From Heterodera schachtii (lineage: Eukaryota; Nematoda; Chromadorea; Rhabditida; Heteroderidae), in contig SIJG01000021.1 in NCBI GenBank assembly GCA_023374025.1, positions 335,675-399,674 of the forward strand: a stretch of 64,000 nt of DNA, read 5' to 3'. Below the pieces are notes generated by a model. That model had not been told where the DNA came from. It made no database searches and saw only the letters and a list, made by a program, of their open reading frames with translations. Shown here piece by piece: positions 9,159-57,000 of the stretch. Position 1 is the first letter of the stretch. Each line of letters starts with the position of its first letter. Position numbers and translations under genes: made by a program.

Positions 9159-9733
9159 TAGGGATCATTTTTTTATGTAAGAAAAATCGCGAAATATGTA
9201 AATAAAATATGTATAAAAAATACTGAAATATGTATCAAATATGTACAAAAATCCAGAAATATGTACTAAAATATGTAAATAAAATTTTTTAAATGGTGAT
9301 TTTTTGGAAAAAAAATTCTTTCTAAAGAGTGAAATAGGCACAAATTGCCATAAAATGACCTAAATAGGTTTAGAATTATCTTTTAGTAATTTCAAAATTA
9401 ATTTTTGATATCCCATTTTTGAAAAAAAAAAACTATTTTTGGGGCACATTTTCAAAAAAAATTTTTTTACTTTTCGCAAAAAATTTCTATAAATTCTCAA
9501 AATTTTAGAAAAAAATTGCGAAATTTTGGATATTTTTGGGGGTATTTCATAAAAAAATTCCTTAAAAATTCTCAAAAAATGCAAAATATGTACGAAAAAA
9601 TGCGAAAAAGTCCAAAATATGTATAAAAATATGTACATATGTAATATGTAGAAAAATCCGAAAATATGTAAAAATATGTAAATAAAAGTCCCAACTTTTG
9701 TACGCAAACACAAAAAAGAAAGTGTTTTTCCTA
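9159..9733. mobile_element. hAT-type word element, word ATATGTA
   Basis: Begins TAGGGATCATTT and ends TTTTTCCTA. Flanks are CTAATTAT (left) and CTAATTAG (right), 7 of 8 matching, as for an old 8-bp target duplication. The interior contains AAATATGTA with slightly varied neighbours roughly 15 times at irregular spacing. Its right end (ACTTTTGTACGCAAA...GTTTTTCCTA) reappears near 30590-30628 and 35315-35359. Confidence 0.7.
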
Positions 9734-9938: not shown

Positions 9939-10544
9939 TAGGGCTTCCAATTATATGGAAATCCATACCTGAAACGCATGAAAAACATGTTTTTAGCTTG
10001 GTTTGAAGCTTCTAGGGTGGATTTCTATATCAATATTTTCCATATTTTTCCATATTTCGCGATTTATGTCCATATTTCTATATTTGTCCATATTTTGGCA
10101 TTTTTCCAGAAAACCTCTATTAGAACCGCCCCATCAGTTAAATTGATCTTTTTGACCTCTAAAGATCGGAAAAATTCCCGAAAAATCAATTTTTAGCAAA
10201 ATTTTCTCAAGAATATTGAACAAATTTAAATTTTCATAAAAATGGTTAATTTATGTCAAAAATAAGCAAAAATTTTGCTTTTGGGTTGATTTTTCGCTAA
10301 AAACGAGTAAATTTTAGCTTTATCATTGTTTTTTTCATCTAAATGATTTTTAATACCATATTTGGCCATTTTTGAATGTTTTGCCTTACATTTAGCGAAT
10401 TTGAAGAAATTTTGAGAAATTACACCCTCAATTTGAAAAATTTATGTCAATATTTTTGCCATTTTATGTCCATATTTTGCAATTTTTGGTCCCTATTTCA
10501 TGGCCATATTTCGGGATTTTATATCCATATTTTTGGAAGCCCTA
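9939..10544. mobile_element. hAT-type word element, word TCCATATTT
   Basis: Starts TAGGGCTTCCAATTATATGGA and ends TCCATATTTTTGGAAGCCCTA, a clear terminal inverted repeat. Flanks are GTAATCAG and GTAATCAA (7 of 8). TCCATATTT and variants recur through both subterminal regions (10020-10110 and 10440-10535). Confidence 0.85.
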
Positions 10545-10552
10545 GTAATCAA

Positions 10553-10972
10553 TAGGGCTCACATTTATAGTTTTTTCACTATTTTTTTTTCCTGAGCTCC
10601 CCGTGGCCTGAAATGCACGAAAAATATTTTTTTTCAGCTGTTGTTAAGCTACTTTTCGAGTTATTAGCAACTTTTTATAGTTTTTTATTTCAACGACTAA
10701 AAAACTATAAAATTTTTGAAAAAAAACTATTTTCAACTATTTTGGCGTTTTGCCCGGAATTTGTTAACAAAAATGCAATAAAAAGGAAAAACACACCCTT
10801 AAGAATCGACCCAAAAATTTTTTCAAAAAATACACCCCTAAGAATCGACCCGAAAATTTTAAAAAATACACCCCTGAAAAATGAAAAAATTTTCAAAATT
10901 CTTCTCCAAATTTTATTTGTTTATTTTCTTGACGAGAATTTTTGATTTTGAAAATTATACATCACATTCCTA
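10553..10972. mobile_element. hAT-type element directly abutting the previous one
   Basis: Starts TAGGGCTCACATTTATAG and ends CATCACATTCCTA, flanked on both sides by GTAATCAA (10545-10552 and 10973-10980), a perfect 8-bp duplication shared with the preceding element. The interior holds ACTATAAAA/TTTTATAGT words and two ACACCCCTAAGAATCGACCC units (10790-10875), a sequence that also occurs at 30040-30100. Confidence 0.75.
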
Positions 10973-11880: not shown

Positions 11881-12587
11881 CAGAGCTGCGATCTCAAAAT
11901 TTTGAAAATCCTCATTTCAGCCATAAAAAATCCTCATTTGCCACTAAAATACCTCAAAAAAATCCTCATTTGGCATGAAAAATCCTCATTTTTTAAAACA
12001 TCATAAAATGCGAACAAAATCAGTTAAATGTCATATTTTTCTTTTGAAACAATCAATCATCTCTTTCTTGTCAATTGTAAGCATTTTATGGAAGTCTGAG
12101 CACGAAAAATCGAAGTTGCATTTCATTTGGGCCATTGCTTTTACAGTGTCCACGTGTAATGAATTTCGTTTATCTGTCCATTGATGTGAGACCCACAAAA
12201 AAAATTGTTTTTTTTTGTGCGCGGTTTTTCCAAAAAAACTTTTTGGGAACGTTGGGAGGGGTCCGGCAGTGCCGATAGGCGCTGCCGGAAATTTTTTGAG
12301 ATTTTGAGTGCGATTTGTTAACAGATTTTGTCAAAAAAATGATTTTGACTGAGGATTTTTCGAAAAAATGTTTAAGATTTGAAGAAAAAGTTCGAACACT
12401 TTGCCAAATATACCTAATTTTTCAAAAAATCATGCGTTTTTGTCACTTTTTTATCAAAAGACCACAAAAATCCTCAAATTTCTCAAAAGACCACAAAAAT
12501 CCGCAAATCCTCATTTTCCAAAAAAATCCTCCTTGACCCTCTAAAAGACCACAAAATGAGGAAAAATCCTCACATATCGCAGCTCTG
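11881..12587. mobile_element. hAT-type word element, word ATCCTCATTT
   Basis: Starts CAGAGCTGCGATCTC and ends ATATCGCAGCTCTG, with a perfect 8-bp duplication TTTTAAAC on both sides. AAAATCCTCATTT recurs about ten times near both ends. A copy of the GATAGGCGC hairpin repeat (12250-12345) lies inside. An open frame at 11975-12184 has no recognisable content. Confidence 0.9.
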
Positions 12588-23495: not shown

Positions 23496-23499
23496 GGCA

Positions 23500-24493: not shown

Positions 24494-24894
24494 TTATTTC
24501 TTCTCATTTTTGCCTTTTTTGACTTTGTTGGCCAATGCGCGTTTTGCTGAACGCATTTTTTTGACCAATTCGGCAACGGCATTCACCTGAAAAAGCCGAG
24601 GAAAATATTGCAATGAAAGGGAGAGGTATACGGTAACAAAACTTACAGTAACAATTTATATAAATAAATAAATAACTGACCGGAAAAGTGACGGCACGCC
24701 AAAACAGACGAAGGCACTTGGCACGGCCACGACCGGCACTGACCGAAGTGCAACCGACAGAAGTAATGTCAATGGCATTGGCATTCGGCTGAGACTGAAT
24801 CGGCGGCACCGTTTGGTGGACAATCCGTTGGCCACACTCAACACAAACTTTGGCACCGGCAACAGCAGTGTTTTGTTGGAGCATCTTTAAAATT
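24494..24894 (-). CDS. Gene B copy 1 (or last exons of the homeobox gene)
   Basis: Exon from ATG at 24894 encodes MLQQNTAVAGAKVCVECGQR, a Pro/Gln-rich stretch and RGRAKCLRLFWRAVTFPV. A GT-AG intron (about 24590-24680) joins VNAVAELVKKMRSAKRALA and ends in a Lys-rich tail NKVKKGKNEKK. No family recognised. It starts only 25 bases after the stop of the homeobox gene on the same strand, and TTTTAAAG sits directly before its ATG as a possible splice acceptor. So it is either a second gene in a pair or the 3' exons of the homeobox gene. Copies lie at 18.5, 33.0 and 38.2 kb. Confidence 0.55.
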
Positions 24895-24919
24895 AATTTA
24901 ATTCGAAACAAATATTAAT

Positions 24920-27549: not shown

Positions 27550-28339
27550 CGCTTAATACACTGAATGTTAGAAAATTAGTTTTAAAAAAACTGCGCCGTT
27601 TTTTACGGCACATTTTTTCCTCTTTCTCCTTCACATCATTTAAAAAAGATTCATTTTCCGTCCATAATTAACCCAACAAAATGTGCAGTGTTTCCCCATT
27701 TTGACTCCTCTGCTGAGAATGGGCATTAATCACAACAGAAAATTATTGGTTTGACCCCAAACGGAGGATGAGACGCCGTCCTCTGATGAGAGACACTTTT
27801 TTTTTGTAATGGGACGCCAAGCCAAAAAAAAAGAAGCCAAAAGTACCGTATAAAATAAATGAATGATGCGAGTCGTTACGGTTGATAAATTTAAAAATAA
27901 AATTGTTTGAAAAAATGTCGCAAAAAAGCCTTTTAAATGTAAAAATGGTGTTGCTCGAATTGCAAAAATTGGCCTTTTTGGTGAAAATTTATTAATAAAC
28001 CAGAAATTTACCAGGTGTTTTTGGAAAAAGCAGGCCGCAAAAAAAACATTGCTATTTGAGATCGACCTTTTGAAAAAAGCATGGCAAAAACCCAGGAAAC
28101 CCCAGGTCCAGGAAAAATCCAGGCTCCTCTAGACCTGGATACAGGCCTTGATTCAGATCCAGGTCGGTCTCTATTAATGATACTTTGAGTACATTTGTTT
28201 TAACAATGATATTTAGCAAAATGATCCATAAACCCGGAAATTCCCGACCCGGTTCAGGTCCCGCGCAGTTCTAGTACTAAATATTAATCTTTTTTTTCAG
28301 TTCGCCTATTTAAAATTTTGTTTAATTACCATCAAAAAA
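27550..28339. other. Divergent promoter region between C1 and D1
   Basis: About 790 bp between the minus-strand homeobox gene and the plus-strand F-box-like gene; the equivalent region is 41146-41790. It includes the CCTGG-word element (28056-28173). No other exon recognised. Confidence 0.5.
28056..28173. mobile_element. Short hAT-type word element, word CCAGG/CCTGG
   Basis: Starts TTGAGATCGACCTTTTGAAA and ends AGGTCGGTCTCTA; the interior is made of CCAGG and CCTGG words in both orientations. The same element, with TAGAGATCGG and CGATCTCTA ends, sits at the equivalent place in segment III (41495-41640), so it predates the duplication. Confidence 0.65.
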
Positions 28340-29363: not shown

Positions 29364-29742
29364 AATTTAAATTTGCATGAATGAATTATTAAGAAATGAT
29401 TGAATTGGTTGATTGAGATTGGAAATGTTCATCGCTTTTATTTGTTGATTTCATTCGCTCGAATATATTTATTTTTTGCCCTCAAATCCGGGTTCGGGCT
29501 AGAATTGGGATGAAATGGAGAAGCGAATTCTCTGGCTCTGAAAATGGGGACCGGTAAATTGGACACCAGAAAATTGGACACCACGCGGAAAACTGGACAC
29601 TGCCCGAATTTTGGACACCAAAGGAAAATTGGCACCGGAAAACTGGACACCAAATTCTTCTTTTTAAAAAATAAACGCAGAAATTAAGTGAAAAATAAAT
29701 TTGGGTAGGGTAAATCAGTTAATGAATTGAGACACTTATAGT
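29364..29742. repeat. AAATTGGACACC word repeats in a gene-free stretch
   Basis: Between D1 and the AATAGTGAC element. At 29545-29660, GGACACC and variants follow AAAATT or AAAACT about seven times at irregular spacing (for example AAATTGGACACC). No ends of a mobile element found. Confidence 0.5.
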
Positions 29743-30342
29743 TAGGGCCCCGACTTTTAGTGACGAAAAATCGCAAAATAGTTAACTAAAATAGTGACGA
29801 AAAAATGCCAAAATAGTGAAAAAAAGTCCAAAATAGTGACGAATAGTGACATAATTTTCAGTCAAAAACTAAGCAAAATTTTTTTTTAATTCACTGATTG
29901 CAGTTGTAAATGAAGTAAATTTACTTTTTTAATAATTTCTTGGCAAATATTGACATTTTTAAACCAAAAATTTTTTCAAAAAAAAAAAAAATTTGGTGAA
30001 TGAATTTTTGAGAAAATTTTTCTAAAAATTTTTTAGTTCGATTCTTAGGGGGTGTATTTTTGAAAAAAATTTAGGTCGATTCTTAGGGGTGTATTTTTTG
30101 GTTTTTTGACATTTTTGTTAATAAATTTTACTAAAAACCTCGAAATAGTGAAAAATAGTGACAAAAAGCCAAAAAAGTGAATTTTCACTATTTTAAGTGA
30201 CAAAACGCCAAAATAGTGATTTCTAGTGACGAAAAATGACGTCCAAATGAAAAAATTTTAACGCAGAAATGCGTTTTTTGAGCTCCTTTCTTCAAATCAA
30301 TTGAGCAAAAAAAAAGTTTTTTCACTAGAAATCGGGGCCCTA
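29743..30342. mobile_element. hAT-type word element, word AATAGTGAC
   Basis: Starts TAGGGCCCCGACTTTTAGTG and ends CACTAGAAATCGGGGCCCTA, with a perfect 8-bp duplication CTTATAGT (29735-29742 and 30343-30350). AAAATAGTGAC recurs about ten times in the outer parts; the middle carries CGATTCTTAGGGGTGTATTT twice (30040-30100). Confidence 0.92.
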
Positions 30343-30370
30343 CTTATAGTATACCAGTTTCAGTAGGCAC

Positions 30371-30465
30371 AATGATTGGCCAAGTGCCAAAAAATGCACA
30401 AAAGTGGGGCGATGATTGGCCAAGTGCCAAAAAATGCACAAAAGTGGGGCGATGATTGGCCAAAT
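30371..30465. repeat. 40-bp tandem repeat, about 2.4 copies
   Basis: GATGATTGGCCAAGTGCCAA followed by AAAATGCACAAAAGTGGGGC, repeated head to tail at 30371, 30411 and (partial) 30451. Confidence 0.95.
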
Positions 30466-31097
30466 CACGGTTATAAATTAAAAGTGTACATTAAAATAAA
30501 AATCTTTTAGCCAAACCAAAATCGTTGTTTTATTTATTTTTAATTAATTTATTTATTTATATCAAATAGTGTCCAATTTAAGTCCTAACTTTTATACGCA
30601 AATGTTAAAGAGAAGATGTTTTTCCTACTAAAAAAATATGCATTTGAATATTTTTGACAGCCCTGCTCATCAGCAATTTTAAGTCGAGTCGAGATTTGTG
30701 ATTGGGAATAAGTTCGGGATAGGAAAAGCGGGACTGAAAGGCCGATTTTTTTTTTTGGTTAGCTGGGTTATTGTTGATGGCATTATTGTACACTGTAAGA
30801 GTCGAGTTCTCGCATCGGCGACAAGCATCACAAAACAGATAGGACAAGCCTTTGTGATAAAGTGGCACTTTCCCAAGGGGAATTAGATATTTCGCACCAA
30901 AATTTTCGGATTGAATAATTTTTTATCAAATATTTATTACTTAAAATAAATGTTGGACATGTCAACAAAATGGTTTTCTGTACTATGAATTTCCTTCTAA
31001 TTATTCAGTTTTCTATGCTCTCAAAAGTCAAAATCAGATCACAACGGTTCGTCATCCTTTCCATGGCCAAACGAACTCTGTTGGCCAGGGTTGGCAA

Positions 31098-31916
31098 TCA
31101 CATGGCTTGGACTTGGCACATTTTGGTGCGCGGAAAATCCTTGAAAATTATTTTAAACAAATATTTATTTAAAAATTTTTTTTGTTTGCCTTTGCTTGGG
31201 TGTCCAACATGCACATCCGTAACAGTAATGTTCAATTCTTGACCAATTGCTTTGATTGCTTGGCTTTCTTGCTCAAATTGTCCTTTCATGTTTTGCCATT
31301 TGGTGTCGGTGCCCGCATGGCCAGCAGCAGCAGCGGCCAAGTCGAACATGGCACGGGCAAAGCCCAAATTGTACGGGCACTCGTCCTCATAATTGATCTC
31401 CATTTTTGCAATGTCTTAATGAGTTAATTTGGTCAATATTTTTAAATCAATTATTATCTCTCGTAAAATTCACATCTCCCCCAAAAATTCCTTTACTTAG
31501 TTTTCAAATTTGTTTAATTACTCTTCAGCTGTCGATCGATTTCGCCCACAATTTGTGCTTCTCCTCCGCTTGGGCATCCGCCGCGAGAGGACAAATCACT
31601 TTTTATTCCATCCACAGTATTTTTCGCGGTTGAGCATACTGTAGATTTGTCCGTGTCAGCAGAAGAGAAAGTGTCAATGTATTTGGACATCACAGCAACC
31701 ACGTGCTGACTGCCCGGGCAGCACGGGAATTCTGTGGAATTTAAATGTAATAAATAATTTTGTAAATTAAATACCAATTTGGGAAAATAAACATTTCCAT
31801 TGAATAGTTTAAACATTAAAATTTGATTTTTTTTAAATTTATTTGAATTTACTTGGCGTTGCATTGCAACAGACCAAAAAGACCATAGGGAAGATGGAGA
31901 GCAGCAGAGAAGACAT
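31098..31916 (-). CDS. Secreted protein of unknown family, gene A copy 2
   Basis: Exons: 31853-31916 (signal peptide MSSLLLSIFPMVFLVCCNAT), 31522-31731, 31209-31414, 31098-31139. All introns are GT-AG, the phases join, and the product is 173 residues. The mature part contains EFPCCPGSQHVVAVMSKYID, a Ser/Thr-rich helix, SSRGGCPSGGEAQIVGEIDR, then DECPYNLGFARAMFDLAAAA and GQELNITVTDVH. There are about six Cys in the mature chain, so disulphides are likely. Family not recognised. This copy has no frameshift and is probably functional. An alternative GC donor at GGCAAAC in exon 3 would extend the C-terminus to 31039. Confidence 0.78.
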
Positions 31917-32849
31917 GGCAAAAAATTATTTTTTATTTAATTAATGTATAAAATTTGAATTAATGATATTTTTTTATTGTTTTTTCTGTGCGCTTAAATA
32001 CCCCCTTTTTCTGATTTAATTAATTGACGTGGCTTTTATTAGACAAAACCATGAAAAAATCATTTTTGCTGAAATTGCTGGTTTTCTTATATTAATTACT
32101 CACTCTTTCACATGAATTTTCAAAGACTTATGAAATGTAGAGAATTTAAATAATAATATTTTTGTTTTTAAAGTATATGTTTTTCATTTAATATTTTTGA
32201 ACATGAAATATTTCATAATTTCTCAACAATTTTAAAAATTCGCTATTTTTATTGCAAAAATGTATTTCGGCCGAAAAAGCAAGCCAAAAATTTTATTTTT
32301 TTTTATCAAAAAACTCTTATTTCTTTTCTATAAATAATCAAATTAAAATATGATATTAGAACTGAGAATTTAAGTCAAATGACTTTTTTCGTACTTTTCT
32401 TTCAATTTTTAAGAAAATACCGAAAATAAAGGTGCCATCTGTGAAAAACCAATTCAAATACGGTTCAAAATAAGTTATGGACTCAATTGTTTTAAAATTT
32501 CGAAAGTTTTTTGAAAATAATTATTATGATTGTTTAATTTAATTATTTATGCACAGTTTTTGTCAAAAATTTTTCTTTTGACAGTTTTTGAGTAAGGAAA
32601 GGGTCATTTGGTAGGAAACTATAGCATTTCGGACTAATGGTTTTGGATTTTTTTCCCATTTTGGGTTCGCCATTTGGGCCAGCAAAAAAGGATTGGTTGC
32701 CCCAATCAGTTTTTGCCTTAGGATCCAAATTGATTGTTTACAAAAATTAATTAATGCTTAAGGTAAGATAGTGAAGAATAATCGAAAATGCTATCTTTAA
32801 TTGTCTCGTCAATCATCAATGCTTCTCAAGCCCTTCTCAATTTGGCCAT
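31917..32849. other. Intergenic stretch between A2 and B2
   Basis: Repeats the sequence of 23500-24493 with a short inserted piece at 32290-32400 (AATTTAAGTCAAATGACTTT) that also occurs at 57088. A deletion near 32720 removes about 140 bases present in segment I. Confidence 0.5.
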
Positions 32850-33490
32850 TTATTTCTTCTCATTTTTGCCTTTTTTGACTTTGTTGGCCAATGCGCGTTT
32901 TGCTGAACGCATTTTTTTGACCAATTCGGCAACGGCATTCACCTGAAAAAGCCGAGGAAAATATTGCAATGAAAGGGAGAGGTATACGGTAACAAAACTT
33001 ACAGTAACAATTTATATAAATAAATAAATAACTGACCGGAAAAGTGACGGCACGCCAAAACAGACGAAGGCACTTGGCACGGCCACGACCGGCACTGACC
33101 GAAGTGCAACCGACAGAAGTAATGTCAATGGCATTGGCATTCGGCTGAGACTGAATCGGCGGCACCGTTTGGTGGACAATCCGTTGGCCAACTCAACACA
33201 AACTTTGGCACCGCAACAGCAGTGTTTTGTTGGGCATCTTTAAAATTTTAATTCGAACAAATTTAATGACTGATGCTCTGTATTATGTCTGCTGTATTTT
33301 GCCTGTGCGTTTTTGAACCATTGCTAAAAATAAATAATTAAAATTAATAATTATCAATTGAAATACTCCCCATTACTTTGATTGCTCCCGTAAGGTCCGT
33401 TTCCTGGCCAATTCTTTGGCCGGAAATGGTTCTTCGCAAACATTTTTCATTTACGCAATGGATAATGTTTAATTCTGTCATTGCCTTAAA
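32850..33490 (-). pseudogene. Gene B copy 2 with remnant of homeobox gene copy 2
   Basis: 32850-33237 corresponds to gene B. Its second exon is intact, but small deletions in the first exon (TTGGCACCGCAAC for TTGGCACCGGCAAC, and two bases lost after GGCCA) create an early stop after MPNKTLLLRCQSLC. Upstream, 33240-33490 holds only the last homeodomain exons (helix 3 WFKNAQAK and part of the helix 1-2 exon), riddled with one-base deletions. The remaining six units of gene C are gone; a 76-bp inverted-repeat insertion (33619-33685) marks the break. Confidence 0.7.
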
Positions 33491-33765
33491 ATTCATTCAC
33501 AATAATATACATAACAAAAAATAAACTCATTAAAAAAAGAAGATTATTACATTTAAATATTAATTTTGAAGTCCTCCCCAAGTACATGGGTTGTTTGTTT
33601 CATTTACATTATTAGAACATGGCTAGGAATTATCTAAATCAAAAACTATCAACAAAAATAGGTTAAATTAAAAATCCTAGCCCTTTAATAACAGATATCG
33701 GATGGTTTTTTTTGGTTTTTATACGACCCGTCATATTAAAAAATTTTAAAATAACCGAAATAAAC

Positions 33766-34790
33766 GGACGAATGAAAAGTTGATACTGATGAGCAAAGAA
33801 ACAAATTTTAATTGGGTGATGAAGCGAAGCCAAATTGGGGAGACGACGGCGGCGATTCAATGGGATGACGAAAATTCGGACAATTTGAACAATGTCAAAT
33901 TTACGCCCTTTCAGCGTGGCCTCGGGAAGTGCGCTGATCAGTCGGCGATTGGAAATATTTGGTCGACGAACATTCAAAACGCGCAAATGGAGTTTGGCGA
34001 ACCAATTCAAATTAGACGAAAAATTGGAGAGAATGGCACAAAAGAAATGCAAATTTTAAATTACGATGGAAAAGCATTGCAAATCCCTGAAAAGGTGTTG
34101 CCGAACAAAGGCATGGCATTCAGAGGCATTTCAATCGAGTAAAAACTAAATGATTTTTAACCGTCACATTTAAAATTATCTGATGTTCAGATTCATCAAC
34201 GCAATGTGTTCACTTTTCTCCGCCGTTTTCACCGTTTTTTCGCCCCATGCGACAACAAAATTTGACATTACCACGGCAAATTCTCGCATTTTGCAGTTCG
34301 TTTGGTTTTTTGTTCAATGACCTCAATTTTGTCAACATTTTGTGCTGATTGTTGTATTTTGAGTCCGTGGTCACTGAATTTTAAATATTTTAAAAAATTA
34401 TTCGCAGTTTTTTGTCAGTAAATCAAATTGATAATTTATTTGTTACTATGCGAATTTATGCATCCACTGTCGGAGCCGATTTTCGAACCATTCCTTAATT
34501 AGATAATTAATAATTCTGTCAATTTCATCATTCATTTTAAAATGCCCGACTCAACGCCAATTGAGCAATTTGAATTGGTGAACGAACTGACGAATGAAAA
34601 GTTGATACTGATGAGCAAAGAAACAATTTTTAATTGGGTGATGAAGCGAAGCCAAATTGGGGAGACGACGGCGGCGATTCAATGGGATGACGAAAATTCG
34701 GACAATTTGAACAATGTCAAATTTACGCCTTTTCGTGACATTCCATCGAGTTGGAAAATATTTTGCGTCGGTAGAAAAGTGAATGAATGA
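33766..34790 (+). pseudogene. F-box-like gene D, copy 2 (rearranged)
   Basis: The order of parts is scrambled. 33770-33915 encodes the C-terminal piece (LILMSKETNFNWVMKRSQIG to VKFTPF). It then runs in frame into a frameshifted form of the F-box core (QRGLGKCADQSAIGNIWSTN) and the downstream QIRRKIGENGTKEMQILNYD (to 34142). 34195-34290 is a piece of the next exon. 34302-34525 is the same homeobox-derived insertion as in D1. 34542-34790 is a second C-terminal piece starting MPDSTPIEQFELVNE. The junction lies at CCCTTTCAGC, shared by the two partners, suggesting unequal recombination. Confidence 0.65.
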
Positions 34791-35773
34791 ATTATTTAGA
34801 AAATGATTGAATTGGTTGATTGAGATTGGAAATGTTCATCGCTTTTATTTGTTGAATTCGCTCGTTTGTTAAAAATTGAATTCTCGACTTTTTACTCTCA
34901 AATCCGGGTTCGGGCTAGAATTGGGATGAAATGAAGAATCGAATCTCCGATTCTCTGAAAATCCTTTAAAAATCATTTCTTCCTAATAACATTTTTATTG
35001 TCCGTTAGTGGGGCCAATAAGTGCCAAAAAGGTAAAAAAAAATTGCAAATTTTTTACATGTGCTACCATTTTTTGCACAGACAATGACCATTTTTTTTGT
35101 TTTTGACTAAATTTACCGTATTTATTGCATTTGAACCCCGCCCCCCTGAATTAGATTTAGGGGGGGGGGTTGAAAAACAGAATCCCCGGGGGTTCTAATT
35201 CAGTAAATACGGTAAAAAAAATTACAAGGATAAAGGCACCACTTTCTCCGCTTTTCCTTCATTCTCATTCATTACACATTTTTTCCTGCGTTCATATGAT
35301 ATGCAAATAAAAGTCCCGACTTTTATACGCAAATGTTAAAGAGAAGATGTTTTTCCTACTAATTAAACTACTTAGACAGGAAAAAAAAATATGCATTTGA
35401 ATATTTTTGACAGCCCTGCTCATCAGCAATTTTAATTCAAATCGAGATTTGTGATTGGGAATAAGTTCGGGATAGGAAAAGCGGGACTGAAAGGCCGATT
35501 TTTTTTTTGGTTAGCTGGCTTATTGTTGATGGCATTATTGTACACTGTAAGAGTCGAGTTCTCGCATCGGCGACAAGCATCACAAAACAGATAGGACAAG
35601 CCTTTGTGATAAAGTGGCACTTTCCCAAGGGGAATTCGATATTTCGCGCCAAAAATTTCGGGATAAATAATTTTTTATCAAATATTTATTACTTAAAATA
35701 AATGTTGGACATGTCAACAAAATGGTTTTCTGTACTATGAATTTCCTTCTCGTTTATTCAGTTTTCTATGCCC
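34791..35773. other. Gene-free stretch with inverted C/G-rich repeat
   Basis: Contains an imperfect inverted repeat around 35115-35215 (ACTAAATTTACCGTATTTAT ... AATTCAGTAAATACGGTAAA) with GGGG and CCCC loops. A hAT-element right end (CGACTTTTATACGCAAATG to TTTTTCCTA, 35315-35359) and the flank shared with segment II (35400-35660) follow. Confidence 0.5.
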
Positions 35774-35850
35774 TCAAAAGTCAAAATCAGATGACAACGG
35801 TTCGTCATCCTTTCCATGGCCAACCGAACTCTGTTGGCCAGGGTTGGCAA

Positions 35851-36594
35851 TCACATGGCTTGGACTTGGCACATTTTGGTGCGCGGAAAATCCTTGAAAA
35901 TTATTTTAAACAAATATTTATTTAAAATTATTTTTTGTTTGCCTTTGCTTGGGTGTCCAACATGCACATCCGTAACAGTAATGTTCAATTCTTGACCAAT
36001 TGCTTTGATTGCTTGGCTTTCTTGCTCAAATTGTCCTTTCATGTTTTGCCATTTTGTGTCGGTGCCCGCATGACCAGCAGCAGCAGCGGCCAAGTCGAAC
36101 ATGGCACCGGCAAAGCCCAAATTGTACGGGCACTCGTCCTCATAATTGATCTCCATTTTTGCAATGTCTTAATGAGTTAATCCGATCAATATTTTTAAAT
36201 CAATTAATTTCTCTCGTAAAATTCACATCTCCCCAAAAATTTCTTTACTTATTTTCCAAATTTGTTAATTACTCTTCAGCTGCCGATCGATTTCGTCCAC
36301 AATTTGTGCTTCTCCTCCGCTTGGGCATCCGCCGCGAGAGGACAAATCACTTTTTATTCCATCCACAGTATTTTTCGCGGTTGAGCATACTGTAGATTTG
36401 TCCGCGTCAGCAGCAGAGAAAGTGTCAATGTATTTGGACATCACAGCAACCACCTGCTGACTGCCCGGACAGCACGGGAATTCTGTGGAATTTATATGCA
36501 AAATTTTGTAAATTAAATATTAAAATTTACTTGGCATTGCATTGCAACAGACTAAAAAGACCATTGAGAAGATGGAGAGCAGCAGAGAAGACAT
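35851..36594 (-). CDS. Secreted protein of unknown family, gene A copy 3
   Basis: ATG at 36594 encodes MSSLLLSIFSMVFLVCCNAM. Intron 1 is shorter than in the other copies. The second exon reads EFPCCPGSQQVVAVMSKYID through IVDEIDRQLK, and the third DECPYNLGFAGAMFDLAAAA to ELNITVTDVH. The copy is intact and differs from copy 2 by a few substitutions (for example Arg to Gly before AMFDL). Same uncertainty over the last exon. Confidence 0.75.
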
Positions 36595-38021
36595 AGCAAA
36601 AAATATTTTTATTTATTAATGAATAAAACAAATTTAATGATATTTTATTGGGTTTTTCTATGCGTTTAAATACCCCCTTTTTCTGATTTAATTAATTGAC
36701 GTGGCTGGCCTTTATTAGACAAAAACATGAAAAAATCATTTTTGCGGAAATTGCTGGTTTTCTTATAATATTCTTTCACATGAATTTTCAAAGACTTATG
36801 AAATGTAGAGAATTTTAAATAATAATATTTTGGTTTTTAAATTCTATGTTTTTCATGATATTTTTGTTTTTATTATGCGACCAAATTTTATCACCACCAA
36901 AAAGCGAGTGGCTTAAAACCGCAAAGCGGGCTAATTGCGTTTCATACAACATTAAGAAATAATAATTATCAATTTCAATAAATTTAATATATCCCTGGAT
37001 TAACAAACAACCGTAACCAACCCCTAATTTATAAAAGTAATTTATAAATTATTCAAAGGGCACACCTTGATGGTGATCGAGCCATTTCCGTGATTGCCAC
37101 ATTGTTAAGCCACCCATCTTCTTTCTTTTTTTCTTTTTTTTTACAAATTAACTGTAATGCAACTGGGTGCGCCACCAATCTGACCGGGCTGAACCCCGGA
37201 CCTAAAATTTTTATTTTATAAATTTTCGGCCGAGAAATGGCTTTTTTTCTTTCAGAAGCGTTTTTCTCGAAAAAATGTTAATGGTAGTTGGGTTTTTTTT
37301 TCCAATTTTTGGATGGTCATTTTGCCGAAGACTTGGTAATTTTTTCGTCCATAACCTAAACCCACACAAATGTGCAGTGTTTCCCCATTTAGACAGTGCT
37401 GGGAATGGGAATTATGAGTCAGTAAAAAATGATGGTTTGCCCCTAATCGGTTATGCCTTGGACTTTTTTTATAATAAATAAACGGAAAAATGACGAACTA
37501 ATCCCTATTAATTGGGTCTGAATTTTCCTTTTTTACTAAGATTCCACAAATTTAATCCGTAGCCAATTAAGCTCCATGGCCTAATTCAGGAACAAATTGT
37601 AAATTGGTTTTGTTGCATTTGGAAATTTTTTGCCGGTTTTTGTGGCACACATTTCCATTCTCTCATTCTCATCCGAGGCCTTATGTAGTCAACAAAAAAT
37701 GATTGTTTTACCCCAACAAAATGCCTTTTTTTCGAAAATAAATAAATGGAAAATAATTACCTGCCATAAATAGATGCTTATCATCAATAATGGATCATGA
37801 AATATGAAACTACACCAGGCCAAACAATAAATTATTAAATTTAAACCAAATTTTATTGTAAAGCAATGAGAAGATTCCAAATTGATCGTTTACAAAAATT
37901 AATTAATGCTTAAGTAAGAAATTAATGAGTAATAATCGAAGATTCCATCGTTAATTAGCAAATTCCATTTTAATTGTCTTAATCATCAATGGCTCTCAAA
38001 ACACTTCTCAATTTGCGCCAT
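36595..38021. other. Intergenic stretch between A3 and B3
   Basis: Starts and ends with sequence shared with segments I and II. The middle part (36850-37740) is unique to this segment and contains no exon I can support. Confidence 0.45.
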
Positions 38022-38325
38022 TTATTTCTTCTCATTTTTGTCTCTTTTGACTTTGTTGGCCAATGCGCATTTTGCTGAACGCACTTTTTTGACGAATTTG
38101 ACGACGGCAAAAAAAATAATAACTAACCGGAAAAGTGATGGCACGCCAAAACAGACGACGGCACTTGGCACGGCCACGAACGGCACTGACCGAAGTGCAA
38201 CCGACAGAAGTAATGTCAATGGCATTGGCATTCGGCTGAGACTGCGGCACCGTTTGGTGGACAATCCGTTGGCCACATTCAACACAAACTTTGGCACCGG
38301 CAACAGCAGTGTTTTGTTTCAGCAT
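38022..38325 (-). pseudogene. Gene B copy 3 (intron acceptor deleted)
   Basis: The first exon is intact (MLKQNTAVAGAKVCVECGQR to RRLFWRAITFPV). The intron is cut short: after the donor, the sequence jumps into the second exon without the TTTTTCAG acceptor and the first codons seen in copy 1. The Lys-rich end survives. Either a truncated product is made or the copy is dead. Confidence 0.55.
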
Positions 38326-38339
38326 CTTTAAAATTAATT

Positions 38340-41145
38340 TAATTTGAAACAAATATTAAATTCATATTAAAAATTGCCATTAATGACTGATGCTCTTTAT
38401 TATTATGTCTGCTGTATTTTGCCTGTGCGTTTTTGAACCACATCTAAAAAATAAATAAATTTAAATTTGAAAATTAAAATAATTTAAATTATCAATTGAA
38501 ATCCCTCCCCAATTACTTTGATTTGCTCCTCCGTAAGGTCCGTTTCCTTGGCCAATTCTTTGATCATAAAAATGTCCGGGAAATGGTTCTCCACAAACGC
38601 ATTTTTTCAATTTGCGCAATTGATAATGTTTAAATTCTGTTCGTTGTCGCTTAAAATTCATTCACAATAAATATAAATAACACAAAAAAATAAACTCATT
38701 AAAAAAAGAAAGATTAATTACATTTAAATATTAATTTTGAAGTCCTCCCCAATTACATGGGCTGTTTGTTTCATTTACATTATTAGAACATGGGCTAGGA
38801 TTTTTAGGTGCTAAATCAAAAAACTATCAACAAAAAATAGGTTAAAATTTAAAAATCCTAGCCCTGTTAATAACTCTTTAAAAAAATAAATTCCACATAA
38901 ACATATAACTACCGGTATCTTGTTCAATGCTTCTCCAATTTTTTGCCCCTGTGAAATCCGTCCGTGAAACCTTTCCTAAAATGATTTAGATATTTTATTT
39001 TTTAATTATTTGAATTTTTTTTTTGTCAACCTTACCTCAACTTGCTTCTCCGTAAGGCTTGTTTCTGTTGCCAATTGTGCGCAATCAGAAGCATTTGGGC
39101 ATTTCGTCGTGCCAAATTTGAGTTCCAATTTGTCCAATTGGTCGGCTGATAAGTTTTGTTTTTGTGCCTTTAAAATTATTATTAAAAAAATATTTGAAAT
39201 AATAAATAATTGTGTCTAAGATGAATGAAAGCCAATAAATCCCTGTCCAAGCCCCGACTCTTGAACAAAGGAAACTTCGGGAATGACAAAAATCCACTGC
39301 CTGCGCCGATATTCGAACCATTCCTTAATTAGACATTAATTAATTAAATAAATATATTAAAAAATATATTTTTTCGTTGGGTCTTTTGAAATTTCTCACT
39401 TTCACTTGCGTTTCCGTAAGGCCAATTTCCTTGGCCATTTTTTCATTTCTTTTCTCAAATTCGCGTTCCAATTTGTCCAAATGATCAGCCGAAAAGTTTT
39501 GTTGTTGAGCCTTTAAAATTATCATTTAAAATATTTAAATAACTTTACTCTCTTTTCCCTCATTACTCTTTTTTGTTGCCTTTTTTTGGCCTCTTCCCGA
39601 TTGTTTTTTGATCGTCGTTTGTAATATTCCTAAATTTAAATTTTCATAAAATTTAAAAAATTTAATTTTTTAATTCCTTCAATCATCAGCCCTTTTACTT
39701 TGTCTTTAACTTCTGCTTTTGCATTTTGTCCTTCTTTCATTGCTTTTTGCACAGCATCAGAAATTTTATCATAAATTGGTGGTAATTTGGCATTTTGTAG
39801 GTCACTAAATTAAAGAATTATCATTCAATAAAATTTCGTATAAAGCATTAAAATTGCTTAAAAAATATTCGTTTTAAAAACTAAAAAATCGCATGCTTTG
39901 GCAAAAATAGACAAAATTAATTAACCATTTCATGTATTTCCATTTCCATTGCGAGCGTCGTTCATTGAACCACTCCTAAGAAGAAGAAAAAAATGTAATG
40001 CCCCAATTAGGGTAATTAAATGACCAAAAGCTATGATACAACTTGTCCTAAGGATTTGATAAAAATGGATTTAAATGATTATTTTAGATTTAATATTAAT
40101 TAATTAATTGTTTTTATTATTTCTGTGATATGATAATTCGAATGTGTTCAATTACTTCATCTTTAGCATTTTCTTCTGCATTTTGTTCGTCTTCAATAAC
40201 TTTTTGAATTGCTGCCACAATTTTAGCATCAATCGGTTCACTGTTTTTATTTATTAGTTTCCATTCTAAGCGCCGTTTTTCAAACCATTCCTAAAAAAGT
40301 ATTAATTTAAAAATTATTTTTAAAATAAATTACTTCGACTTGGTTGTCTGTAATGCCAATTTCCATGGCATATTCTTTCATATCACCGACACTCAGGTAT
40401 TTCTGTACCACAAATATTTCTTCCAATTTGTCCAATTGAGCGGCCGAAATGTTTTGTCGCTTTGCCTTATAATTAAATGATTTAACTTTTAAAACTGTTT
40501 AAAAAACATTAGAAAAAAATTGAAATTAAAAATATGTGAAGCCAGAGAAAACATTTTTGGATACAAAAATTTAAAATTGTTTGTCCGGCAATAGCAAAAA
40601 GATTTACTCAAAAATTTTTTCTAATTTTTTGACTAATTTTGTTTGAAAATGAACAAAATTTTCATAAATCTCCCAATTTACATTATATTTTTGTAGTGCG
40701 TTTTCATTCTCTTCAATATCGCATTGAGCATCCAAAAATAGACGGAAATAAAATTTCCAAACTGTGCGGCGTCGTTCGAACCATTGCTAATTAAAATTTA
40801 GAATTAAAATTATTATTTATTTTTAAATTTGAATCCTCCTACTTCGATTTGCTTCTCCGTAAGCCCAGTTTCCTTGGCCAATTGTGCATGAGCAGAAGCA
40901 CTTGGGCACATTGTTTTCGAAAATTCATTTTCCAATTTAATCAATTGGTCGGCTGAATAGTTTTGTTGTTGCAACTTTAAAATTTAAATTAATTAAAAAA
41001 GGAATTTTAAAATAATAAGTGTTTTTAAAAATTGGCCAAAATTTTTACTTTTACATATTATAATTAATTATTTATTTATAATATAAATTCCACTTACAAA
41101 ATCAAAAATTGCACGATTTATGTCCCGTAGCAAATTAAAGTCCAT
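38340..41145 (-). CDS. Multi-homeodomain gene C, copy 3
   Basis: Starts MDFNLLRDINRAIFDF at 41145. Helix 1-2 exons: NYSADQLIKLENEF (about 40975), NISAAQLDKLEEIF (about 40455), NFSADHLDKLEREF (about 39510), NLSADQLDKLELKF (about 39160), then the final RTEFKHYQLRKLK unit (about 38640, with a one-base insertion). Helix 3 segments: WFERRRTVWKF, WFEKRRLEW, WFNERRSQW, EYYKRRSKNNR, WFEYRRRQW, RFHGRISQG, WFKNAQAKY. The first unit is better preserved than in copy 1 (WFERRR against CFDDQR). After WFEYRRRQW a deletion has removed the Gln-rich linker and fused the helix to former intron sequence. An 85-bp inverted-repeat insertion lies at 38790-38865. The deletion and frameshift suggest partial decay. 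Confidence 0.68.
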
Positions 41146-41790
41146 CGCTAAATTCAAGGAATAAATTATAAAATTAGTTTCAAAAATATGCCAATTCCAT
41201 CTCCTCCTCATCATTTAAAAATGTGACTCATTTCCGTCCATAATTAAGCACAAAATGTGCAGTGTCTTCTCATCATTTGGACAGTGCTGCTGGGAATGGG
41301 CATTAATCACAACAGAAAATTATTGGTTTGACCCCAAAACGGCGGCGGATGGGACGCCGTCCTCTAATGAGAGACACTTTTTTATAATGGATTCCAACGC
41401 CAAAAAAGAAGCTAAAAATACCGTACAAATTTGGTGCTGGGTCGTTACGGTTGAAAGTTGTTGGGAAAAGCGCGCTGCGAAAAAACATTACTATTAGAGA
41501 TCGGCCTTTTGAAAAAAAGCTTGGACCTGGACCTGGATTTCCAAATTGACCTGGACATGGATTTCCTGGACATAAATCCAGGAAAACCCAGGTCCAGGAA
41601 ACATCCAGGCCTGGATCCAGGTCCAGCAGGTCGATCTCTATTAACTATACATTGAGTACATTTATATCGGCATTAACAATTATATTTATCCAATGATCCT
41701 ATAATCTACACGAGTATCTTTATTAGTATTAAATATGGATTAATTTTTCAGATTGCCTATTTAAAATTTTGTTTAATTACCATCAAAAAA
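41146..41790. other. Divergent promoter region between C3 and D3
   Basis: Equivalent to 27550-28339. It contains the shared sequence CAACAGAAAATTATTGGTTT (41310) and the CCTGG-word element. Confidence 0.5.
41495..41640. mobile_element. Short hAT-type word element, word CCTGGACCTGG
   Basis: Starts TAGAGATCGGCCTTTTG and ends CAGGTCGATCTCTA; the interior is almost entirely CCTGG and CCAGG words. Flanks ATTACTAT and TTAACTAT are imperfect duplicates. Same insertion as 28056-28173. Confidence 0.75.
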
Positions 41791-42969
41791 ATGTCTGACA
41801 ATCCAAAAGACGCGGAAAAACAAATGGAAAAAGCGATGTAACAATTCAAATTTGAATTCCCATGGTAATCACTTTGCTTTTCCGTTTTAAGCTTCATCTG
41901 TGCCGACTGTTGGCTCAATGTTTTCGATTTGCTGCCGCCCTTTCAGCTTGGCCTCGGAATTGCATTGATCAGCCACCGATTGGACTATTTGGTCGACGAA
42001 CATTTCAAAACGCGCAAATGGAGTTTGGCGAACCCAATTCAAATTCGACAAAAAATTGGAGAGAATGGCACAAAAGAAATGGAAATTTTAAATTACGATG
42101 GAAAAGCATTGCCAATCCCTGAAAATGTGTTGCCGAACAAAGGCATGGCATTCAGAGGCATTTCAATCACGTAAAAACTAACTGATTTTTAACCGTCACA
42201 TTTAACTGATCGATGTTTAGCTTCATCAAGCGCAATGTGTTCACTTTTCTCCGCCGTTTTCACCGTTTTTTCGCCCCATGCACAACAAAATTTGACATTA
42301 CCACGGCAAATGCTCGCATTTTGGAGTTCGTTGTGCTCAACATTTGGCCAATGTTCAATGAAACCATTCGCCTGGATAGAGTTGAAATCCACCGCTTTTC
42401 ATCGAATCCGCCAATTTGCCCCGTCCATTCTCCGCAATTGTCCGTGTCTTCAAACTGTCCTTTTCCATCACCGCAACTTTTTGCCCGAATTTCCGCCCGA
42501 TGACAGTGCCAATGCGTCGGATGGCCAAGCGGTGGCCAAATGGCTGTTCTCGCCTCATCCCAACAAATTGCCAAAATATCTCATATGCTTTGTGAATTCA
42601 GCGGTGAAACAACAATTTTTGACAAATGTGGCACAAATCAAAGCGGTGATTTATCTAATTTAATTCATTTTTTTGACTATTTTTTGTCTTTTTTTTTGTT
42701 TTTAGTTTTTTTCCATTGCTTCTTCTCCCGTTGCTTTCGTCATTTCATTTAACTTTACGTCGTCCTCTTCGCCTTCTTCCGTTGTGCCATTTGAACTGAT
42801 CAACGAATTGACTGGAGAGAAATTGACACTGTCACAATTTTCTGGAAATTTTCAGCTCATTTGTTGTCCAATAAAACCGGGAAAGGCGATGAATGAAGAA
42901 CTTCGGACTGATCGACTGAAGAACCAAATTGAGATTTGGATCGGAAATTCCGCATTTGACAAAAGGTGA
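41791..42969 (+). pseudogene. F-box-like gene D, copy 3 (full length, one frame break)
   Basis: MSDNPKDAEKQMEKA at 41791, intron to about 41889, then FICADCWLNVFDLLPPFQLG through MAFRGISIT. A second intron (about 42170-42221) leads to FIKRNVFTFLRRFHRFFAPC, FDITTANARILEFVVLNIWP and, after a one-base frame break near 42390, FHRIRQFAPSILRNCPCLQT, DDSANASDGQAVAKWLFSPH and PKYLICFVNSAVKQQF. The last exon (about 42708) reads SIASSPVAFVISFNF, VVPFELINELTGEKLTL and ends IGNSAFDKR. As I remember it, this matches the order of an F-box-like family expanded in Globodera. The frame break may be a sequencing error; otherwise the copy is complete. Confidence 0.68.
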
Positions 42970-52119: not shown

Positions 52120-53991
52120 TAGAGATCGGAATTTTGAGAAAATACGGATAAGGGTAAGGGTTACGGGCTTGCCATCTATACGGGTTACGGGCTTACGGGC
52201 TAAAAACCCGTAAAACCCTTAACCCGTAAAAACCCGTATTCAAAAATAATACGGGTCCGTATACGGGTAAGGGTTTTTTTCTTTTTGATAAAAATAGGGG
52301 GTGTACTATAGTCAACCCCCCGTAAAAAAACGGCACAAATGATATACCAATCGATTCGTCTCGACGAGTTATGCACGAAAAAGTGGGTCTCCAGTTGCGG
52401 AAATGCCAAAAAAACCGGTTTTTGAACCGGTTTAAAACTCGAAAATTTGAGTGAAAAGGGGGGCTCCTAACCTTTTAAAATGGTTAAAATCACACAAATT
52501 TGGTATCATTCGAAAGGTCTTGATGAGCTAAGTCTAAAAAACAAGGTATAAATTCGAACTGATGCCATTTAGGCACGGGGACAACTGAGTCCCAGTGAAA
52601 TGGACACTTCAGTACCGAAAAATAATAAACGCGAGACAACAATTTAAAAGCAAAATTTCGCAAAAGGGAGCATGCGAAGACGGAGTAAGTAGTGGGGCGA
52701 GACGGAGGGCGGAGGAAAAAGTCTGACGAGCGCCACAGGCGGTTGACTGCGGGGGCCCGAAGGGCCCCCGCCAATCAGTCAACCGCCTGCGGATCACGCG
52801 CGGACTTCTTCCGTAGCCCGTAGTCTCGCCCCACCTACTGGCCACCGTAGTCGAGTGTGCGGCGGTTTTTTAGCGCAATACTCGATATTCAAGGCTAAAC
52901 GATTTTCGTGCATCATATAAGAAAAAAGTTTTTGGTACTGAAGTGTCCATTTTCACTGGGACTCAGTTGTCCCAGTGCCTAGATGGCATCGGTTCGAATT
53001 TATACCTTGTTTTTTAGACTTAACTGATAAAGAGCTTTCGAATGATACCAAATTTGTCCGAATTTGACCGTTTTAAAAGGTTAGGAGCCCCCCTTTTCAC
53101 TCAAATTTTCGAGTTTTAAACCGGTTCAAAAACCGGTTTTTTTGGCATTTCCGCAACTGGAGACCCACTTTTTCGTGCATAACTCGTCGAGACGAATCGA
53201 TTGGTATATCATTTGTGCCGTTTTTTTACGGGGGGTTGACTATAGTATATCCAAAATAGGTTTAATAAATATAAATTTTGAATATTTAAAGCTAAAAGAC
53301 ATTATAATAATTTTTATTATAAATTTTAAGCAACAAAATTCAAAAAACACAACAATTGGCATCCGGCGGTGACCGTTGGGCGCCTCCGGGAAATTTTTTT
53401 TAATTTGATCGCAATTTGTTATTAGATTTAATAGAAAAATTGACCAAATTTGCGATTTTTAACTGATTTCATGAATTTTGCGATCAGTTTTTCATTAAAA
53501 TTACTTATAATTTTGAAGAATTTACAAATCCAATTCGTAAAAAAAAGAATTAAGAAAAACAAAAAAGAATTTCATAAAAAATTTAAACGAAAGCTATTCA
53601 ATAACTTAAAAAATTTTTGGTACAGAAATAATTGATTTCTTTTCAAATTACATAAATTTTACAATATTTACCAATGCTTTTTCGATTTTTCACCGAAAAT
53701 TTTACGGAATTGACCGCCCAATTTCAAAGTTTTGGCGAATTGACTGCACAAAATTTAAAAATTTACTCCATTTTCACCTTAAAAAATGAAAGAAAATTAA
53801 CCCGTAAAACCCGTATCGTAATTGTACGGGTAAGGGTAAGGGTTACGGGTTTGACATCGATACGGGTTACGGGTTTACGGGCTAAAAACCCGTAAAACCC
53901 TTAACCCGTAAAAACCCGTATCGGCCAAAAAAAGTACGGGTTACGGGCCCGTAAAAACCCGTATACGGGTCCGGCCCGTATCCGATCTCTA
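52120..53991. mobile_element. hAT-type word element, word ACGGGTAAGGGTTACGGG, with a nested foldback
   Basis: Starts TAGAGATCGGAATTTTGAG and ends GTATCCGATCTCTA; the 8-bp duplication CTTACAAT flanks it exactly. Both ends (52135-52275 and 53805-53985) are dense in ACGGGTT/AACCCGT words in both orientations. Nested inside are the foldback 52303-53250 and a GATAGGCGC repeat (53350-53470). Confidence 0.92.
52303..53250. mobile_element. Nested foldback element, arms about 315 bp
   Basis: The left arm ACTATAGTCAACCCCCCGTA onward (52308-52620) is the near-perfect reverse complement of 52932-53245. The centre holds a second palindrome: GTGGGGCGAGAC with GTCTCGCCCCAC, GGCGGTTGACTG with CAGTCAACCGCC, and GGGGGCCC-GAA-GGGCCCCC at the apex (52757-52775). 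The arm contains GGACACTTCAGTACCG, also present in the tandem repeats at 61.6-62.1 kb. Confidence 0.9.
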
Positions 53992-54062: not shown

Positions 54063-57000
54063 ATGGATTTTTATCCTACTCAATTTTCGTCAACGTCAGC
54101 AGCTTTATCTGCTACAACAATTCCGCAAAATTTTTTATACCGATGCGAAAAATACGTCGCCAAAATGTTTTATGCCGAACGAAAATTCAGCGAATTGAAA
54201 ACGGGCAAATATTACCAAGCACGGAAAGCTCAGGTTTTTTCATTAGAATTTATTAAATACATTCACGGGCAATGGTAAAGAACATTGGTCCCGAAAAAAA
54301 TATTTTTTAATTTGAGAAATTATTTTTAGGGGTAATCTGAGGTGAAAATCACGAATCTAAAATTCTTTTGGCTTTACTAGGTCGTTGCATAAAAAGTTGC
54401 CGTTTTTATTAACACATTTGAGAATCTCGAAAGTTTGGTGTGGGAAAAATCTGCTTTTGTCCCTATCTGTCCTCTACAAAATCGCATTAAAAGGTTTTGA
54501 TCAGCTTTTCAAACTGGCGAGAAAAAAATTCATGAACCAGTTTGGGTCGAAATTGCGTTTTTCGGGTTTTAGACCGGTTTAACGTTGAGTTCGGGGTTCG
54601 TTACCAGCGGTGTATTTTTACACCACCTAATTCTGAATCGAATACAACAACTCTTTGATTTTTTATGATTTTTTGAACTTTGGCTTGAAAACAACGAGAA
54701 AGCTCATAACTTCTAACATTTTTTTTAACTTATTTATGTAATATTTTGTGATTTTTTTTGCATATTATTCCTAGCTTGTTTGTTAACAGTGGTAACAATC
54801 ACCATAACACTTTTTTGTTTTTTGTTCTTCACCTTATTGTTTTACTATTTATTGTCAGATTGAGAAACGGCGTGAGTCGGTCAGAAAACGAATTTGCCCG
54901 TGCTTTTTGAGACGCAAATCGGTGATTGACGACCAATACAACGAAAAGAAAAAGGTTGTCAAGTGAGAGCAAACGAATGAATTAAAATAATACGACAAAA
55001 AATCATAGACTGATGAAACCATAGCTTTGTGTTGTCTTATGACAAAACTGATAGCGTTTTTTCGCTCATTATCAGTAGAGCCCGGAATTTTGAAAGTACC
55101 GAGAACGGGACCGGGCTTAGACAATTGGGCCCGTAAGGGCCGTCCGTTCAAAAAAAAAGCCCGTTTTACCGGGCCCGGTCCAAAATTTTGACCGGGCGAC
55201 CGTACGGGACCGGGCTTTTTTCAAAATTTTAAAAATTCATAAAATAAAAAAATTTCGTAATTTATATATTGCTGTTTTAAATCAAACGTTGATGGAAAAT
55301 TTTAATAAAATTTTTATCACCCAACAAAATTAAAGATGGTTTTTGTGAGCGATTTGGTGCTGAAGTCTGGCATGCCAAATTCATATTTGGCTTTTCCCAA
55401 ATTTTCAAAAATCCTAAGTTCTATCTTGAAATTTTGAATTAAAGATATTTCGGCAAAAATAATTATTAAATTTTTCAAATTTTGGAACAGTTTCGCTGGC
55501 GAAATTTAAGCCCGTTTTAGCCCGGTCAAATTGACCGGGACCGGGCTTGGATAATTTGACCCGTACGGGGCCGCCCGTCAAAAAAGCCCGTTTTACCGGC
55601 CGCCCGGTAAAAGCCCGTCCGGGCTCTAATTATCAGCACCTTTAACAACTCATGAGTGAAATAAAAAATCGTTTAAATCGGGCATTTTATATTATCTCCA
55701 GTATTACCCGAAAAAAATAATACGTAAAAAATTTAACACACCCCCCCCCGCCCCTCACAGAAATTGGAAACCGTCCGTTCTCTTCGTTTACGCGCGGCGG
55801 AGCGCTGTCGGGAGGCCGAATTGAGTGCAGCTCGGTTGAATTTGCATGAGTTGGAGACGACGGTGGTGCGGCAGCAATGCGAAAGAATGGTGGAGGGTAA
55901 AATGGAGCAACTCAAAGCGGAGACGGAAGCGGTGGAAGGTGTGCAATTTTGTGGTTTGGGCAACTTACCGAAACCAATGCAATGAAAAATCCTTATTACT
56001 TCGAATTAACCGAACCTAGTTATGATCATAATGTAATTTCGAATTCCTCCAGTTTTATTTCGCTCTATACCAAAATCCATTAGCAAAACTTTTTCCAAAA
56101 GACTTTTTGCTCTTCGGGCCAAATTTTTTTCTCCTGTGTTATATCAACAATTTCAGTGGTGTTAAAATTTAAAAAAAACCAAGGTATAACTGGGGGTCCG
56201 GCGGTGCAGATAGGCGCAGCTGGGAAAATTTTTTTGGAAATTGTAAAGAATATGATAAGAAAAATTGCAAATTTTCCTTTTTTTCAAAAAATACTAAAAA
56301 AGGCATCAAAAGGCACCAAATTACGTGCCCGGCATAAGGCACCAAAATTGCAAAAAAGGCATAAAAACTTCAAGCTAGAAGCTTCAAACCAAGTTAAAAA
56401 CTCGTTTTTTGTGCGTATTAGGCCATAGCAAGTTAGCAAAAAAAAAAAGGCATATGCCTCAAAATCCGGGCTTAAATAATTATCCACTCAAAATTTATTG
56501 CCGCTTTTTTTTCTTTTTCACCGTCCACATAGTGTTTTCCCTCTTCTGTTTGTAATTTCGAATTCCCTCCAGTTTTACCGGTGAATTATTGGTTCAAAGA
56601 CTAAGTACTCTCACCGCATACTTAAATTTTTAAAATTTAATCGTAAAAGCATTTTCAGAAATTCTACAAGAACGTTTCAACTCGAATTTGTCAAAATGCA
56701 ATGATGAGTACGAATCTCAATCGATGAACAAATATTTGGTGGAAGGCGAAGTGAGTGAATGAGTTGGTTGGAAAATTCGATTGCAGCTTATTTTCCTCAC
56801 CTCAAACCTGTGTTGTGGTTGAAATGGGAATGAATCCCGAATTTAGGACTTTCAGCACCTCCCATTTAGGGCCTATAAGATAAAATGGGCACGGATTCGG
56901 TTACCCCACATTTGCGCCCCGGACATTTGTGGGTAAAAGTCGGGAACATTGGTCCCATAAAAAGGGTAAAAAATGCTCGGGCCAAGACGTTTTCGTACCG

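Follow-up and report, generated by a model that had tools for sequence, protein, structure and literature searches.

Several short insertions with hAT-like ends, each carrying copies of a short word of its own, lie in a 64,000-bp stretch of the Heterodera schachtii genome (the window; positions 335675-399674 of contig C21). The insertion that begins at position 52,120 raises the question of what these words are and why they differ from one insertion to the next. The genome searched was the 178.5-Mb assembly, in 356 contigs, from which the window is taken.

Insertions in the window and their families

An earlier note on the window had listed seven insertions flanked by 8-bp duplications (A to G in Table 1). 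The duplications are exact in five of them and have one mismatch in F and G. The note had also described ends of the form YARNG with the complement at the other end. Under a strict test (exact 8-bp duplication and 12-bp inverted repeat with at most one mismatch) this description held for four of the seven; E and the right end of G fit it poorly. Strict pairs of ends and duplications occur four times in the window and in none of 100 first-order Markov sequences. The ends of E agree poorly past TAGG, and only its exact duplication passes. E and F lie side by side (9939-10972) with GTAATCAA between them, as if one had entered the duplication of the other. A further short element, H, has the ends TAGAGATCGG.../...GATCTCTA and the flanks ATTACTAT/TTAACTAT, which agree at six of eight bases. 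A comparison of joined flanks with the window, most of the fetched loci and the paralogous segment near 34-36 kb revealed no empty site of the hAT insertions.

Table 1. Elements of the window and their parts (positions count from the first base of the window; class names are the most likely assignments).
Feature	Position	Strand	Ends	Flanking duplication	Word	Remark
A, hAT MITE	52120..53991	.	TIR TAGAGATCGG	CTTACAAT, exact		916-bp consensus element plus nested palindrome
A, left subterminal word zone	52149..52274	.			ACGGG/AAGGG and complements	limits read off sequence
A, right subterminal word zone	53800..53980	.				limits read off sequence
Palindrome nested in A, 954 bp	52299..53252	.	GGGTGTACTATAGTC/complement	AAAATAGG, 8 bp		
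B, hAT MITE	55076..55628	.	TAGAGCCCGG	ATTATCAG, exact	CCGGGC/CCGGGA	words close to both ends
C, hAT MITE	11881..12587	.	CAGAGCTGCGAT	TTTTAAAC, exact	AAATGAGGA	
D, hAT MITE	29743..30342	.	TAGGGCCCCGA	CTTATAGT, exact	AATAGTGA	
E	10553..10972	.	inverted repeats poor	GTAATCAA, exact	weak	adjoins F
F, hAT MITE	9939..10544	.	TAGGGCTTCCAA	GTAATCAG/GTAATCAA, one mismatch	AAATATGG	
G, MITE	9159..9733	.	left end TAGGG	CTAATTAT/CTAATTAG, one mismatch	AATATGTA	
H, 146-bp element	41495..41640	.			CCTGG	seventh word of the earlier note
H, second copy	28056..28173	.				diverged; within paralogous stretch; limits hand-counted from sequence

We rejected the reading of the locus at 52120-53991 as one 1.87-kb element (1,872 bp): it is a 916-bp element split by the 954-bp palindrome, which is a separate element inserted in A. 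Other A-type copies have a majority consensus of 916 bp (n = 17), and those with exact duplications mostly measure 835-918 bp. AAAATAGG is found twice in window A, around the palindrome, and once in the consensus of the other A copies, which provides the empty site. The two arms of the palindrome differ at 69 of 451 aligned positions; we take the palindrome to be perhaps Merlin-like. At another locus (L004:2492-3129), a 638-bp neighbour with A-like ends and the exact duplication CTGATCAA lies about 70 bp past an A copy.

First-look searches of the genome gave 567 candidates for A (query, its first 281 bp), 218 for B, 2974 for C, 3680 for D, 2759 for E, 1402 for F and 2258 for G; these are candidates, unconfirmed as copies, and 40 per family were scored. 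Of the 40 scored, the majority run over the whole element or close to it for each of C to G, and for B the majority span one or both end parts. In F, the match starts at base 30 of 606 in nearly all copies other than the one in the window, and in E it stops at base 406 of 420 in most of the other copies (40 scored for each). An exact 8-bp duplication is present at 16 of 29 A loci outside the window, and the second end is absent from some of the fetched loci. The insertions are most likely ordinary small hAT-type non-autonomous elements (MITEs) of several different families. According to the earlier note, long internal homology among genome copies would reduce the words to ordinary satellite content. 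Such homology does exist in part, as in ordinary multi-copy MITE families, but it does not make the words satellite content, since for A the words are the part held in common with an autonomous partner (see below).

Word arrays and transposase partners

The enrichment of one word in each element is borne out by the final form of our test, which used dinucleotide shuffles and non-overlapping counts and excluded words without G or C or with five A/T running. None of 300 shuffles attained the best 8-mer count of A (consensus), B, C, D, F, G or H; for E, 8 of 300 did so. An initial test against first-order Markov surrogates had put no top word of the window above the largest of 100 surrogates, and had given p <=0.05 in only 8 of 19 tips of other hAT elements; it was dominated by A/T runs and was replaced after that result was known.

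The words are not spread through the elements. The interiors had been described as full of the word, amplified through the element, and we rejected this description, as all counted copies are subterminal: none is farther than 200 bp from an end in A (33/33 inside this limit), B (11/11), C (6/6), D (8/8), F (7/7) and G (12/12). The count is least informative for B, G, D and F, whose middles measure only 153, 175, 200 and 206 bp. With the word of C defined slightly differently, one inverted copy near position 470 of 707 falls outside the end zones; the word of C given in Table 1 is the complement of the ATCCTCATTT of the earlier note, with a one-base shift. In A, 13 copies lie in the left zone and 20 in the right. 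Copies are present in both orientations, and some are clustered.

The interiors were also said to share no sequence, which does not hold: a stretch of 115 bp is 83% identical in D and E, and one of 42 bp is 86% identical in D and F. A comparison with a shorter seed adds a 69-bp stretch of A and C at 81% identity (not listed with the longer seed). Near the tips, F resembles G, and G resembles D. The left tips of D and G and the right tip of F form an ungapped alignment of some 60 columns. Word-like stretches coincide in it at three places, and some of these differ from the exact word of the family.

At least 141 matches to the hAT dimerisation domain (PF05699) were found in the genome among 150 scored of 238 candidates, and one of them adjoins an A end. 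It belongs to a 2,584-bp element (L091:2621-5204) with TAGAGATCGG tips and the exact duplication TTATTTAT, whose last open reading frame (ORF) contains the domain (E 1.8e-15). The tip of this element is 96% identical to that of A over 159 bp. ACGGGT is confined to its first ~190 and last ~160 bp, and the shorter word ACGGG occurs twice more in the body, beyond these zones. L091 shares its tips with A and has the word of A at both ends, which supports it as a complete partner. The tip of B is 82% identical over 50 bp to the tip adjoining the hAT domain of another locus, L031. Membership of the hAT superfamily is thus supported in A, through its complete partner, and in B, through tip resemblance only. 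The same holds for the idea that each word may be the binding site of the element's own transposase.

We read 42 of the at least 141 hAT-domain loci and found no partner for C, D, E, F or G among them. The ends of F (TAGGGCTTCCAA) and C (CAGAGCTGCGAT) resemble the tips of L093 (CAGGGCTGCCAA) and L096 (CAGGGTTGCGAT), which suggests where their transposases may be sought; L093 has no significant word. Tips were mostly placed by eye or where homology between copies stops. This succeeded in 29 of the 42 loci, and failed in 9 of 30 longer loci and in 4 of 12 short ones (L099, L100, L101, L103). An enriched 6-mer, with a count reached by at most 1 in 300 shuffles, is present in 15 of the 19 tips tested; L092, L093, L094 and L098 have none that is significant. 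The 15 tips use 13 different 6-mers, some of them overlapping (CCGGGA, GCGGGA and TCGGGA share CGGGA): CCCGTA (L091), CACGGG (L053, L054), TACGGA (L043, L046), CCGGGA (L031), GCGGGA (L036), GCAGGA (L033), TCGGAA (L034), TCCCGA (L037), AATCGG (L042), CCGTGA (L095), ACCGAA (L097), CGAAGC (L102) and AAATCA (L096). L037 and L097 have the same start, TAGAGACCGGACAA, and different words.

A C-x2-C...H-x5-H pattern, recognised by eye, is present at the N-terminus of the transposases of L091, L053, L043 and L046 and may represent a BED-type zinc finger. Pfam reported no family in the L091 ORF with this putative finger, a PDB search gave one irrelevant match (E 1.5), and a protein search with one L091 ORF gave no match.

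Taken together, the sequence patterns make it very probable that the insertions are non-autonomous hAT MITEs, each of its own multi-copy family, moved in trans by a hAT transposase that binds the family's word. The putative N-terminal BED-type finger would bind many word copies near each end and so bring the ends together ahead of cleavage at the tips, in the way established for Hermes, with the middle of each element as cargo. The word would differ among families because each transposase reads a different site, and in related families the tip and layout would be kept while the word is rewritten.

Word differences between related hAT families

The tip of A can be aligned with that of L043 over 165 bp without gaps. 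The third G of GGG (or the first C of CCC) differs in 13 of 13 word copies, compared to 24 of 152 other columns (Fisher 5e-10). A second L043-type tip, in L044, gives 13/13 word copies and 20/152 other columns, and L046, which has mixed words, 10/13 and 25/152. GGG sites in the transposase body show this third-base change in 1 of 6 cases for L043 and in 1 of 7 for L046. L053 and L054 keep GGG; there, the T before ACGGG has become C in five of six forward copies, with the matching change in one of three reverse copies.

L036 and L033 are close relatives: two stretches of their transposase region are 96.8% and 99.2% identical. Between the two, 11 of 13 copies of CGGGA differ at the second base (A in seven, C in four), compared to 17 differences in the 172 other columns among the first 190 (Fisher 9e-9). 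These p-values are nominal, as the word position was chosen after looking at the alignments, and the tests treat columns as independent. Judged by identity, both word classes look amplified. Among 40 matches to the L033 tip, 21 cover all 160 bases at >=92% identity and 15 (self included) at >=97%; six loci that are 96-100% like L036 show 88-91% identity to the L033 tip, and the others are partial or 92-93% identical to L036 and may form a third group. In the B family the words are mixed and grade into one another, with no clean switch. The L034 and L037 groups were too alike for a word comparison, and L044 was left out because its own tip was not found; for the L042 group, tip and coding divergence were compared.

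The word positions have also changed more often than the 3-prime non-coding part: 11/13 compared to 20/70 for L036 and L033 (p 2e-4), and 13/13 for A and L043 compared to 45/111 for L043 and L059 (p 2e-5). We read these in-register differences as a turnover of the word, which perhaps tracks transposase specificity. The putative finger was compared at six positions matching the base-contacting stretch of Hermes; the first zinc histidine served as the anchor, with no structure to guide the placement. L091 and L053, whose word keeps CGGG, differ at none of the six. L091 differs from L043 or L046, whose word has CGGA, at three of six; in the loop, moreover, Leu-Gln takes the place of Arg-Pro. Elsewhere, 12/59 and 12/57 positions differ from L091 (Fisher 0.13 and 0.14, from one lineage). 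The finger differences are only suggestive, and fit a changed reading of the word.

Our tentative explanation, to which we give rather less than an even chance, is that hAT families split by switching their binding word, keeping tip and spacing, probably in step with the DNA-reading helix of the transposase. The switches in question are GGG to GGA, TACGGG to CACGGG, and CGGGA to CAGGA or CCGGA.

The turnover, as distinct from the binding role, might instead be a product of recombination, in which a transposase body was exchanged between older families that already differed in their tips; the words would then not have changed quickly. We regard this as a serious contender that nevertheless falls short of even probability. 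Coding and 3-prime non-coding parts disagree strongly, with 2/280 compared to 20/70 changes for L033 and L036 and 22/280 compared to 51/148 for L054 and L059, which can mean either constraint on the coding part or body exchange between families, and the mixed words of L046 also fit an exchange. Against it, the tip scaffolds keep their register and have changed little outside the words (6 of 147 non-word terminal positions for L033 and L036, compared to the 20/70 of their 3-prime part), and an exchange pushes the coherent rewriting back in time and leaves it unexplained.

The turnover is unlikely to stem from biased mutation (CpG decay, for example) or from gene conversion of short tracts among the word copies. 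The base that differs between L033 and L036 does sit in a CpG, and G to A or C to T accounts for 7 of the 11 changes, but the remaining four are G to C or C to G. L043 keeps its CpG and has changed the third G of GGG on both strands, a change that its transposase body shows at just one of six sites (few as these are). Conversion tracts would need to be very short, since the spacers are not homogenised. We therefore rejected CpG decay as a general cause on the L043 pattern, and regard it as a possible contributor for L033.

Finally, MITE interiors can gain repeats, and words present in both orientations and partly clustered could be satellite-like tandem repeats spread by slippage with no binding role, but this is highly improbable: the counted copies keep to the outer 200 bp at each end, L091 has the same arrays on either side of its transposase gene, most of the other hAT elements read have word arrays at their tips, and the spacing of the words is irregular and in register between related families.

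Relation to known systems and other features of the window

Binding of BED domains to subterminal repeats and diversity of hAT specificity are already known, and coherent word turnover is the part that deserves attention. In Hermes, as described in the part of the published account used here, BED domains bind the left-end subterminal repeats and no BED domain binds the right end (PMC10368747); thus, an array may lie at each end without both being bound. The same part places the base-contacting stretch within R63 to R70, before the zinc ligand H71. Short repeats near the ends are common to both systems, and the putative N-terminal BED-type finger (by eye, in L091 and its relatives) would be a further likeness. 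The repeats here are denser, with the 13 left and 20 right copies of A, and their binding role is a predicted one.

hAT-derived binding proteins, in the portion of PMC8097297 considered, have diverse specificities, mostly for CGG and some for AT-rich sites, and four hAT-encoded proteins have motifs that match the subterminal regions of their own elements. CGG words are likewise found in A, B, L031, L034, L036, L037, L042, L043, L053, L095 and L097, and AT-rich words in C, D, F, G and L096, but L033 (GCAGGA) has lost CGG. That portion treats the specificities of many proteins and contains no case of in-register rewriting between related elements. Ds shares its tips and some subterminal repeats with autonomous Ac (PMC3260210, in part). 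Like the Ds-type elements and hAT MITEs in the excerpts compared (Ac/Ds, PMC3260210; Drosophila mar, PMC3517528), the elements of the window have no coding capacity. They differ in that several families, each with its own dense word, occur in one window, and in that a single position separates the words of related families in almost every copy. Among the titles and abstract openings of open-access papers searched, none describes subterminal repeats that have changed coherently and in register from one element to a related one.

A transposase that changes its specificity and yet keeps its own ends poses a puzzle, as one amino-acid change needs a match at a dozen DNA sites. The pairs A or L091/L043, L036/L033 and L091/L053 are candidate matched variants of protein and site in one genome, which opens the specificity question to a binding assay. 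If word switching is true, related elements would form a natural series of transposase-site co-evolution, and switching would let new elements and their MITE families escape cross-mobilisation by, or competition with, the parental ones. The word may also help in annotation, as a quick way of tying a MITE family to its transposase, as shown for A only.

Elsewhere in the window, several segments of 150-1,495 bp within 22402-42332 repeat at 77-99% identity (for example, 22402-23874 with 30820-32304), apparently a local segmental duplication. An Rfam search of the window gave no match. Helitron-like ORFs occupy 19421-21613, with a Pif1 2B domain at 21044-21610. The closest relative of the first of these ORFs (75% identity over 68% of the query) is found in Meloidogyne enterolobii, a root-knot nematode.
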